From Litoreibacter arenae DSM 19593 (GTDB taxonomy: Bacteria; Pseudomonadota; Alphaproteobacteria; Rhodobacterales; Rhodobacteraceae), in the NCBI RefSeq assembly GCF_000442275.2, contig NZ_KE557306.1, positions 902,959 to 966,958 of the forward strand: a stretch of 64,000 nt of DNA, read 5' to 3'. This document shows positions 25,733 to 28,203 of this stretch, in pieces. The translations under genes were made by a program, and so were the position numbers. Every line of letters begins with the position of its first letter. The first letter of the stretch is position 1. Under the pieces are notes generated by a model. It made no database searches, had not been told where the DNA came from, and worked only from the letters and a program-made list of their open reading frames with translations.

Positions 25733-25779
25733 AGTCCAGTGTAATATCGCCGCAATCCGACAGAAGCGGGCACCCGCGC

Positions 25780-26067
25780 TCAATCGGGCGGCTGGCGCTC
25801 CGACTTTTTGAGGATGCCTGTCTCGACAAGATCGCGAAGCAGCCCCTTGATGGCGCTCTTCAGGCGCACCGGGTCCTCCTCGGGAAAAAGGAACCGGAAC
25901 TCGGCCACCACCTCCTTGCGCGTCGCGGGCGTATCGAGCAGCCGCCAGAGCGCCGAAGCAGTTTCGTTCAGGTGATGGATCCGACCGCCTTCTTCGTCAA
26001 TGAGGAATATCTGCCCTTCCAACTGTCGCACATCCAACCATTCGTTCTGTCGCAGCAATCTGGCCAT
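25780..26067 (-). CDS. PqqD-like protein (putative peptide-binding/RRE-type chaperone)
   Basis: A 95-residue protein matching the PqqD fold: WLDVRQLEGQIFLIDEEGGRIHHLNETASALWRLLD (a beta-rich start then helix; the shared pattern is a VLLD.EEG.IHHLNETASALW-like core), then a three-helix C terminus. PqqD-like domains present peptides to modifying enzymes. Its ATG follows the TGA of the HprK-like gene directly, so the two are coupled. It closely resembles PqqD-like partners annotated beside HprK-related kinases. Its peptide client is not proven; the repeat protein encoded upstream in the same direction is the obvious candidate. Confidence 0.82.
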   Translation of the reverse strand: MARLLRQNEWLDVRQLEGQIFLIDEEGGRIHHLNETASALWRLLDTPATRKEVVAEFRFLFPEEDPVRLKSAIKGLLRDLVETGILKKSERQPPD

Positions 26068-26961
26068 TCATGCACCGCCGCCGTAAGTTTCCGCGATACA
26101 TTGGGCCGCCTGTCCCACATCGCTGAACTCCAGCGTCCGCAGCTCCGCGCGGTCCATGAGCGCCGACATCTCGTCAAAGATCAGGGTCGGCGATAGATGG
26201 GTCGCGAAGTTCTGATCGATCATCCTGGCCAGAGTTTCGGCCCTCCCTGCAGGGAGGAGGCGTGCGGACACGGGGGCATCGCTGCGGCGCAATAGCACAA
26301 TGGCGCGGATCGGTGCCGTGGTACCGAACGCGGCCAACTCGGAAGGTCTGAAGTTGATGTAGGCGGCATATCGATCCGCCAGCCCCATGCGGCGGTCTAC
26401 AAACCGGCTGTGGTCCGGCGAGATATTTTCCGGCAAGGGCAGTCGCAACCGCGGCAGGATACCCATGGCGAGCCCGTCGTTCCCCCCCAGTTCTATGGGC
26501 AGTACATCGTCACAGAAGATCTGGTATCCGCGCAAGGCCAGTTCGGTCACCAAGGTCGACTTGCCGGCCTTCTTGCCGCTGGGAAAGATCACCAGTCCCC
26601 CACCGACCCTGACGGCGGCGCAGTGCAGGCAGAACTGGTTGGTGAACTCAAGTGCGTGCCAGTCCAGAAAGCGGTAGTGGAAGTCAGCGACCCCATCCAT
26701 GACTTTTCGAGGCCCGCGCGGTGACCAATCGTCGGGTGGGGGCAGACGCTCTGACTGCCATTGAAACCTGCCATCGCGCTTGCTGAAGCGGATGATCGGC
26801 GGCGGCGTACCCTGCTCAGACACCTCTCGGACGTGCCAGCCGCGCAGGATTGATTTGAACCCCTCAAGCAGATCGTCGCAATCGTCGAACTCAACCAATG
26901 ACGCGTAGGGGCCAAAATGCACCAGCCGAGCCGGGAGGGTGTCGCTAGAAATTGCTACCAT
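26068..26961 (-). CDS. HPr-kinase-like protein (HprK-related kinase)
   Basis: A 297-residue protein whose central part resembles the C-terminal catalytic domain of HPr kinase/phosphorylase: LHCAAVRVGGGLVIFPSGK near residue 112, the P-loop PSGKKAGKST near residue 126 and FCDDVLPIE near residue 148, comparable to the catalytic Asp segment of HprK. The N-terminal ~95 residues are not the HprK sensor domain. Relatives of HprK phosphorylate serines, including in lasso-peptide precursors. No HPr or PTS gene is visible here, so another target is likely. It sits between the Ser/Lys-repeat gene and the PqqD-like gene on the same strand. Confidence 0.82.
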   Translation of the reverse strand: MVAISSDTLPARLVHFGPYASLVEFDDCDDLLEGFKSILRGWHVREVSEQGTPPPIIRFSKRDGRFQWQSERLPPPDDWSPRGPRKVMDGVADFHYRFLDWHALEFTNQFCLHCAAVRVGGGLVIFPSGKKAGKSTLVTELALRGYQIFCDDVLPIELGGNDGLAMGILPRLRLPLPENISPDHSRFVDRRMGLADRYAAYINFRPSELAAFGTTAPIRAIVLLRRSDAPVSARLLPAGRAETLARMIDQNFATHLSPTLIFDEMSALMDRAELRTLEFSDVGQAAQCIAETYGGGA

Positions 26962-26994
26962 GACATTCCTGTAATCCTGACCGGCACCATAACA

Positions 26995-27021
26995 AATGGC
27001 CCCCAGATGACGAGGGCCATT
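26995..27021 (-). terminator. Hairpin between the repeat-protein gene and the HprK-like gene
   Basis: Arms AATGGCCC (26995-27002) and GGGCCATT (27014-27021) with an 11-base loop. Read leftward the stem is followed by TGTTATGG, a poor U-tract. It may partly terminate transcription so that the repeat protein is made in excess over the kinase-like and PqqD-like proteins. Confidence 0.5.
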
Positions 27022-27084
27022 CTGACTTATGCCAAGCCATTGCGGAAAGGTCAGATAATGTCGACACTCTCCTTACAGCACGCG

Positions 27085-27456
27085 CTATTTGCGTGACTTG
27101 TTGGACTTACCTGACTTGTTGGATTTGCCCGACTTGTTGGACTTACCCGACTTGTTGGATTTACCCGATTTGTTGGACTTACCCGACTTGTTGGATTTAC
27201 CCGACTTGTTGGATTTACCCGACTTGTTGGACTTGCCCGACTTGTTGGACTTGCCCGACTTGTTGGATTTGCCCGACTTGTTGGATTTGTCGGGGTCGTC
27301 CGGGGTCCCGGGATCCTCGATTGCCCGGGCCTCACTCACTGTGGTCATGGTTGGAATGACGAAAATCGCCGCTCCGAGACCAAGCCTTTGAAGCGCGCCG
27401 CGGCGCGTCAAGAACTCGTCGGTCAAGAATTTGTCGTCGTTAGATTTCTTTGTCAT
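27085..27456 (-). CDS. Exported protein with eleven SNKSGK-type hexapeptide repeats
   Basis: A 123-residue protein in three parts. Residues 1-45 form a twin-arginine-like signal (LTRRGALQRLGLGAA, hydrophobic core, then SEARA before IED). Residues 46-57 are an acidic Pro/Asp linker (IEDPGTPDDPDK). Residues 58-123 are ten SNKSGK units plus a final SNKSRK, giving 22 serines and a strong positive charge. A very strong ribosome site (AAGGAGAGG) precedes the ATG. I recognise no homolog by name. The downstream HprK-like and PqqD-like genes suggest the repeated serines are phosphorylated or otherwise modified. It could alternatively be a polyanion- or wall-binding basic protein. Confidence 0.85.
   Translation of the reverse strand: MTKKSNDDKFLTDEFLTRRGALQRLGLGAAIFVIPTMTTVSEARAIEDPGTPDDPDKSNKSGKSNKSGKSNKSGKSNKSGKSNKSGKSNKSGKSNKSGKSNKSGKSNKSGKSNKSGKSNKSRK
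27088..27285 (-). repeat. Tandem array of eleven 18-bp units encoding SNKSGK
   Basis: 198 bp made of 11 in-frame 18-bp units; variation is mainly at synonymous third positions (GGA/GGC-type and AAA/AAG changes), with one non-synonymous change in the last unit (Gly to Arg). Synonymous drift with conserved protein suggests selection on the peptide. The period makes copy-number change by slippage likely. Confidence 0.93.
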
Positions 27457-27516
27457 AACTTCCTCTCCTTAATACGCTGTCCTGCCGCCCGTTTTCTGCA
27501 GGCGAACCCGACTACA

Positions 27517-27531
27517 TTGACGTAGCGTCAA
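27517..27531. promoter_or_regulatory. Inverted repeat upstream of the repeat-protein gene
   Basis: Perfect palindrome with arms TTGACG and CGTCAA around TAG, about 60 bp before the ATG at 27456, within the promoter-size gap after msrB. Could be an operator; the leftward strand also reads TTGACG, a possible -35 element. Confidence 0.4.
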
Positions 27532-27663
27532 GATAAAAGCAACGGGTAAGCAACTCGCCATGGTGCCGACGGGCCTGATGCGTATTGACGGAGCAGAAAT
27601 AGATCCCCTGCGAGCGGTTGAAAACTGGCACAACACCGGCCCCACGGCTATCGCTGTCGCTGG

Positions 27664-28203
27664 TCAAGCGGTCACAGGCTTGAAGACCAGGGATGTGCCG
27701 TTGATGCAGTGGGTCTGGATGCCCTCGACGATGAGGAAGTGGCCCAAGTGACTGCCACAGCGGCGGCAATGTATCTCGGGCGTCGCGGCGTAGCCCGCGG
27801 CCATGTCGCCGTATTCGGTCACCACACCGTCGATACCCATCAGCACGTTATTGGGGATGGCGTGGTAGAAAAAGGCCCAGCCTTTCTCAAGAACGACTTT
27901 CCAGCTCCCGTCAAAGCTGGGCAGGTCACAGCCCCTGCAATGATAGGTGCCTTCATCGGTCTTGTTCCAAAGAGGGCTGGTTTTTTGCTTCTCGGTCTTG
28001 CCCTCGCGCAAGATGGCGTATTCGAGGGGGTTAAGCCGCTCACGCCATTCGGCGTCGGTGCGGGTGATTTCGTATTCAAAGGTCGACCCGCCCTCGGAGT
28101 CGAGCGCGAGCGCACTGGACGAAGTGCCCGCCGTCAGCGCGGCGGCGCTGGAATAGGCGAAAAAGCGGCGGCGGTTCAGTGAGGTATTGATTATCGACGG
28201 CAT
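27664..28203 (-). CDS. msrB: Exported peptide-methionine (R)-S-oxide reductase
   Basis: Repairs oxidised methionine (R-sulfoxide) in proteins. The 179-residue protein starts with a twin-arginine signal (NRRRFFAYSSAAALTAG, cut near SALAL), so it works in the periplasm. The MsrB domain shows WRERLNPLEYAILREG, the zinc pairs CRGCD and CRRCGSH, and the catalytic THCINGTSL near the C terminus. Start ATG at 28203 is chosen to begin at the signal peptide; the frame extends 20 codons upstream without an export signal. The neighbouring small exported protein may be co-regulated. Confidence 0.93.
   Translation of the reverse strand: MPSIINTSLNRRRFFAYSSAAALTAGTSSSALALDSEGGSTFEYEITRTDAEWRERLNPLEYAILREGKTEKQKTSPLWNKTDEGTYHCRGCDLPSFDGSWKVVLEKGWAFFYHAIPNNVLMGIDGVVTEYGDMAAGYAATPEIHCRRCGSHLGHFLIVEGIQTHCINGTSLVFKPVTA

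Follow-up and report, generated by a model that had tools for sequence, protein, structure and literature searches.

We describe a three-gene cassette that probably directs the phosphorylation of serine tracts on a leader-bearing protein before its export by twin-arginine translocation (Tat). The cassette lies in a 64,000-nucleotide stretch of Litoreibacter arenae DSM 19593 (contig NZ_KE557306.1, positions 902,959 to 966,958), here called the window, and encodes a serine-repeat protein, an HprK-like kinase and a PqqD-like protein. The PqqD-like protein would act as an RRE, the recognition element that binds leaders of ribosomally synthesized and post-translationally modified peptides (RiPPs). 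The gene pairing, the leader motif, the catalytic residues and an exchange of serine for aspartate tracts are computed directly; binding, phosphorylation and its extent, and Tat export are predicted from the sequences.

Pairing of the kinase with a leader gene

Two genome samples were searched, 394 genomes of the family, almost all one per genus, and 398 genomes of the phylum. The kinase query matches 30 of the 394 family genomes at E <= 1e-8. With a threshold of E <= 0.001, a profile of 28 aligned leaders (alignment A1) matches 43 of the 394. The match is strong in 30 genomes, whose best E is 2.7e-12 or lower, and weak in the other 13, which range from 2.3e-5 to 8e-4. A strong leader is present in 29 of the 30 kinase genomes, the exception being G410 (Neomegalonema), and the kinase in 29 of the 30 strong-leader genomes. 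The exception on this side, G239, has its leader before a kinase fragment cut by the contig end. With G239 counted against the association, Fisher P is 1e-41, uncorrected for relatedness. In the phylum sample, which was held out, all six close kinases (E 2e-74 or better, own genome excluded) have a leader with the motif YxxP and a Ser-repeat open reading frame (ORF) directly upstream.

The initial annotation had asked whether a Tat-like neighbour with Ser/Lys repeats is conserved beside the kinase. Across all wide loci, 43 of 48 kinase ORFs are immediately preceded by a leader ORF in the same orientation; the repeat gene is thus present beside most of the pairs. This count, like alignment A2 and the tree, omits L075, which is the same locus as L044. 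The five kinase ORFs with no leader ORF so placed are those of L044, L046, L079, L147 and one of the two in L078. Near weaker relatives of the kinase no leader was found, either at L117 (E 1e-48) or at the 22 loci L118-L139 (E 6e-25 and weaker). The pairing is therefore a property of this kinase subgroup and not of all HprK-like proteins. At L078 (genome G052, contig C63), two kinases of the group flank a 72-residue leader protein without Ser repeats, and L079, on another contig of G052, holds a 70-residue precursor related to that of L078.

HprK relatives have varied clients, and the kinase might act on some other partner, with the repeat protein having a structural role or lying beside it by chance. 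We give this idea almost no credence, given the genome-wide co-occurrence and adjacency of kinase and leader gene, the loss of both the PqqD domain and the leader gene in the L044 and L046 lineages, and the common leader motif, which is of a type that RREs bind. The comparative evidence (pairing, leader and co-occurrence) instead supports the repeat protein as client of the kinase, as first proposed.

Organization of the cassette and the repeat array

The features of the cassette, in window coordinates, are as follows.
27085-27456, reverse strand: repeat protein (proposed client), 123 residues; an ORF with a leader-profile match and 11 SNKSGK-type units
27322-27456, reverse strand: leader, residues 1-45, with the end ARA as a signal peptidase-like site (alignment A1, 28 leaders)
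27400-27405, reverse strand: twin arginine R18 R19, invariant in 28 of 28 leaders
27352-27363, reverse strand: FVIP, residues 32-35, the window form of the YxxP RRE-recognition motif (leader alignment)
27088-27285, reverse strand: Ser/Lys repeat array, ten SNKSGK and one SNKSRK, with Ser at each third residue
26994-27022, reverse strand: RNA hairpin between the repeat gene and the kinase gene, 12 pairs, loop of 5
26068-26961, reverse strand: HprK-like kinase, 297 residues; H113, K134 (P-loop), D151 and D152 conserved
25780-26067, reverse strand: PqqD-like RRE protein, 95 residues (Pfam PqqD)
25736-27678, no strand: cassette limits from blastn against the same-genus genome G009

The three leftward ORFs, the eleven repeats with 22 serines and the abutment of the kinase and PqqD-like genes, with the ATG immediately after the TGA, are all as initially annotated. 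The whole repeat protein has 24 serines. Tandem Repeats Finder reports a period of 18 bp, 10.8 copies and 92% matches for the array. Codon differences from the unit consensus are 12 synonymous and 1 not, where 12 of the 54 possible single-base changes would be synonymous. The naive P of this excess, 1.5e-7, takes no account of the origin of the copies by duplication; because the copies are not independent, the bias is no more than suggestive of selection on the protein sequence.

Serine-rich tracts recur behind the leader elsewhere. Among 60 leader-bearing proteins the post-leader stretch contains 5-48% Ser+Thr, 0-40% basic and 0-38% acidic residues, and the strongest Ser/Thr spacing is three residues in 35 of the 60. 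Tract units among relatives include SNKSGK, SAA, SEP, (S/T)RP, SGG and SYSRP. Of the Ser/Lys repeats expected in the neighbour, Ser/Thr is thus the recurring part, and the lysine of SNKSGK is not conserved.

A Tat-like leader with an RRE-binding motif

The leader consensus is LSRRxALxRxGLxAxAAYxAPAxTTLSAAHAS. RR, one Pro and AxA are invariant in the 28 aligned leaders and the Tyr is nearly so; YxxP is found in 27 of 28, the window leader having FxxP, as does that of L040. No YxxP occurs in 27 ordinary Tat leaders (TIGR01409 matches from eight of the same genomes; 28 found, one duplicate dropped). YxxP is the recognition motif of lasso-peptide RREs, as given in the available text of PMC12710340. 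The sections available for the linear polyphosphorylated peptides (LPP) of Bacillota (Popov et al. 2026; PMC13381572) likewise describe RREs that bind YxxP leaders, with binding weakened by changes of Y and P. Since YxxP is present in these leaders and in none of the ordinary ones, the export signal appears to contain a handle for the RRE. The distant leader match L150 has lost the Pro. The residue after AxA varies, being I in the window and G or K elsewhere.

Within the whole L. arenae genome the window repeat protein is the only leader-profile match at E <= 0.001. That genome has TatC, through which the repeat protein would be exported, and an HprK that is a separate protein from the cassette kinase.

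Identity of the kinase and the PqqD-like protein

The His-Lys-Asp-Asp set of the kinase (H113, K134, D151, D152) is invariant in 40 of 40 aligned relatives, and is the essential set of lasso-peptide kinases according to the accessible part of PMC9266682. An AlphaFold2 model (predicted local distance difference test score 83.8) has a predicted phosphoenolpyruvate carboxykinase (PEPCK)/HprK fold. The best four matches of a kinase profile to PDB sequences are HPr kinases; the other matches (chromate reductase etc., E 0.002 and weaker) cover short, different stretches and were set aside as chance. In single-sequence searches the kinase shows only distant kinship with HprK, scoring 39.3 bits against HprK_rel_A (TIGR04352; cut-off 200) and 10.8 bits (E 0.36) against Pfam Hpr_kinase_C (PF07475; cut-off 33.3). 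The assignment comes from the profile search and the fold model, the Pfam match by itself being uninformative.

The PqqD-like protein passes the Pfam PqqD model (PF05402) with 45.7 bits, compared with a gathering cut-off of 23.4, and scores 25 bits against PqqD_rel_X (TIGR04353), below the cut-off of 35. A separate PqqD-like gene beside the kinase, as annotated, is true of the window; at most loci the domain is fused to the kinase C-terminus. In the public plasmid records (6 of 6) the fused protein is called simply "PqqD family protein", and the Paracoccus marcusii gene table lists no gene at the expected leader/repeat position.

Other leader-bearing proteins and the exchange of serine for aspartate

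The leader is also found on subtilases (S8 domain), of which some (L148) are not linked to the kinase gene. A second leader-bearing protein, whose C-terminal domain is PepSY-like, is encoded immediately behind the kinase in L048, L050, L053, L054, L057, L062, L065 and L069. Three of the PepSY-like proteins have no Pfam match at E 0.01, and the name is our reading of an alignment of the eight. Response regulator and histidine kinase genes follow the PepSY-like gene (family F4 at 8 loci, F3 at 9), and genes for an extracytoplasmic function (ECF) sigma factor and a putative anti-sigma factor lie near several subtilases. Because the same leader stands on subtilases and PepSY-like proteins, the kinase may have a set of clients.

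Subtilase orthologs match in 42 of the 394 family genomes. Of these, 30 loci were read, and we scored 29 subtilases, from 26 of the 42 matched genomes plus three from other searches; L227, L228, L233 and L234 were dropped, with the N-terminus missing or short. Of the nine with a YxxP leader, eight have a Ser-rich tract and one a poly-Asp tract. The 20 without the YxxP leader all begin with a different signal peptide and carry a poly-Asp tract in the equivalent position; 16 of these come from genomes without the kinase (Fisher P of Ser/Asp against leader 2e-6, relatedness uncorrected). At least three swaps are needed to explain the subtilase tree. One falls between the two main clades, and the others in L212 and L209. 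L212 is nested among subtilases with YxxP and Ser tracts, and has lost YxxP and gained poly-Asp. If the Ser tracts are phosphorylated, replacement by poly-Asp is what one would expect, and the pattern suggests conversion of the Ser tract into a polyanion.

Should a single serine near the cleavage site receive several phosphates, as in LPP, the repeats would be a flexible spacer. LppK, in the portion of PMC13381572 available, acts exactly so on S3 of its core, and a Ser immediately follows AxA in many leaders. We consider this unlikely, as that residue is not conserved, almost purely synonymous drift preserves the 22 serines in the window, and whole Asp tracts rather than single acidic residues replace the Ser tracts of subtilases. 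Phosphorylation of the tracts is thus the preferred reading.

Several further features of the subtilases were observed. Long poly-Asp tracts just after the signal peptide are seen in a Rhodobacteraceae subtilase family (L074:5012-6427, L045:4727-6097 and L215-L226). The subtilases of L047, L055, L059, L061, L066 and L148 end in a common C-terminal SGE. On a Paracoccus marcusii plasmid (L182:2779-5517) the subtilase frame seems to shift within the catalytic region; L182 was left out of the subtilase tree as its frame looks broken.

Origin and limits of the cassette

The cassette occupies about 1.9 kb between msrB and edd, names that were assigned from sequence, msrB with support from a SelR domain. 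The same-genus genome G009 has an empty site, where edd starts approximately 70-80 bp past the msrB stop. Homology between G009 and the window (blastn) ends at window position 25735 and restarts at 27679. We infer from this empty site that the three genes travel as one unit, and that they were gained between msrB and edd. Gain is preferred over loss because the kinase is absent from the rest of the genus sample (0 of 20 other sampled genomes). The cassette is mobile-looking.

These limits bear on another possibility, that the serines are glycosylated, or phosphorylated and then eliminated to dehydroalanine, with the kinase step serving as activation. Class III lanthipeptide enzymes perform phosphorylation followed by elimination in the available account (PMC10604976), and LPP clusters contain an NTP (nucleoside triphosphate) transferase to which the available text assigns an unknown role (PMC13381572). 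Yet no further modifying gene lies within the cassette limits set by the empty site, and none is found among the neighbour families common to at least four loci. We regard such modifications as very improbable compared with phosphorylation as the end state.

The region between the repeat and kinase genes (26962-27084) has a fold of -49.7 kcal/mol (z -3.87; 0 of 200 shuffles equally stable). The hairpin at 26994-27022 is possibly a partial terminator that lowers kinase expression relative to the substrate. An inverted repeat, TTGACG-CTA-CGTCAA, lies at 27517-27531, approximately 60 bp 5' of the repeat gene, and is a possible operator; a promoter scan found no promoter.

Proposed mechanism and its weighing

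In the proposed mechanism, the PqqD-like RRE would bind the YxxP or FxxP that lies within the repeat protein's twin-arginine signal, and would present the Ser-rich tract behind the leader to the HprK-like kinase. By analogy with PadeB1 (PMC5067487), the PqqD-like protein would be expected to bind the leader with nanomolar affinity. The kinase would phosphorylate serines (and threonines) of the tract with ATP in the cytoplasm. The modified protein would then be exported via Tat, with removal of the leader at AxA, and a tail that is polyanionic, or polyampholytic with the lysines of SNKSGK, would reach the periplasm or the outside. One kinase could serve several clients, namely the repeat protein, the subtilase and the PepSY-like protein beside the two-component system. 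As to the use of the charge, our guess is cation binding or a surface matrix.

Several observations weigh against this mechanism. Genomes of the same family sample supplied the sequences for both the leader and the kinase profile, and the P-values ignore relatedness; because alignment A1 came from these genomes, we place weight on the absence of the leader elsewhere and on the held-out sample. Locus L147 has the kinase and a PqqD domain with no leader match within 16 kb, and the L079 leader is on the opposite strand. In the window leader Phe replaces Tyr, and the score on the Tat model TIGR01409 is 13.4 bits, below the cut-off of 16.7; the TAT-like leader initially reported is right in character and falls short of the model. 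A fold search places PEPCK above HprK, and all 50 matches listed are PEPCK. Long Ser arrays are not universal, as the precursors of genome G052 (L078, L079) are short with 2-3 Ser/Thr each and L040, the closest relative of the window locus, has 6 Ser in its mature part. One subtilase (L055, which is L209) keeps the YxxP leader yet has a poly-Asp tract. Finally, LppK, as far as the available text describes it, modifies one Ser repeatedly, with no array, and does not accept Thr at the site (PMC13381572).

Comparison with known systems

The HPr-rel-A system (TIGR04352 and TIGR04353) likewise combines a kinase with a PqqD partner, and we know of no client for it. HprK_rel_A is matched by 37 of the 40 kinases at E <= 0.001; the window proteins fall below the cut-offs of HprK_rel_A and PqqD_rel_X and hence lie outside both families.

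The closest parallel is LPP, and the best reading is that the cassette may work like LPP and differ in leader, export, core and clients. LPP systems consist of an HprK-like kinase, an RRE and precursors with YxxP; working with the RRE LppB and a YxxP leader, LppK places up to four phosphates on one Ser of its peptide (PMC13381572, available sections, also for what follows on LPP). Common to both are an HprK-like kinase, an RRE, a variable core, the lack of a macrolactam cyclase and a patchy distribution, and the YxxP motif is shared (27 of 28 leaders, FxxP in the window). The full LPP motif YxxPxVLxHQxIxFETxxS is not matched, the leaders here having AYxAPAxTTLSAAHAS. LPP clusters include an SpI-like peptidase, an NTP transferase and an MsbA-like transporter, whereas the window cassette consists of three genes without these. 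Unlike LPP, the present systems have a twin-arginine leader with AxA, an RRE mostly fused to the kinase, a Ser-array core, and subtilases and PepSY-like proteins that share the leader. They occur in Alphaproteobacteria and a small number of other proteobacteria, LPP in Bacillota.

The lasso-peptide kinases PadeK, ThcoK and SyanK are likewise HprK-like with His-Lys-Asp-Asp, and their precursor is modified before maturation; their target is the Ser at the C-terminus of a lasso precursor, and they are encoded beside B and C genes (PMC9266682). Lasso cyclase and peptidase genes are absent from the three-gene cassette. DUF2063/DUF2282 systems also pair an RRE with a precursor that has an export signal peptide, but in the available description (PMC12710340) they are Sec-dependent with no clear recognition motif, in contrast to the Tat-like leader, YxxP and kinase here. 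The Paracoccus plasmid cluster of PMC8273931 is, by the text available, a different cluster and not the present cassette.

A literature search found no description of HprK-like kinases that are paired with Tat leaders or have Ser-repeat clients; bioRxiv preprints and most subscription papers lay outside it. A term search of the RRE-Finder paper (PMC7470986) found no mention of kinase or HprK.

Significance

Beyond the initial annotation, the analysis adds YxxP/FxxP in the leader, the subtilase and PepSY-like candidate clients, and the Ser/Asp swap, which is a natural phosphomimetic experiment. We lean modestly towards a wider proposal, in which a Tat signal doubles as a RiPP leader, a kinase makes polyanions on the Ser tracts of several unrelated exported proteins, interchangeably with poly-Asp, and proteobacteria export polyphosphoserine proteins. 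Phosphorylated protein materials are a possible application for kinases that modify repeat arrays by way of a portable leader. If the reading is true, a client would be assigned to an HprK/PqqD group recorded only as "PqqD family protein", an export signal would be used as a modification leader, and exported polyphosphoserine would be a bacterial trait, testable with three genes.
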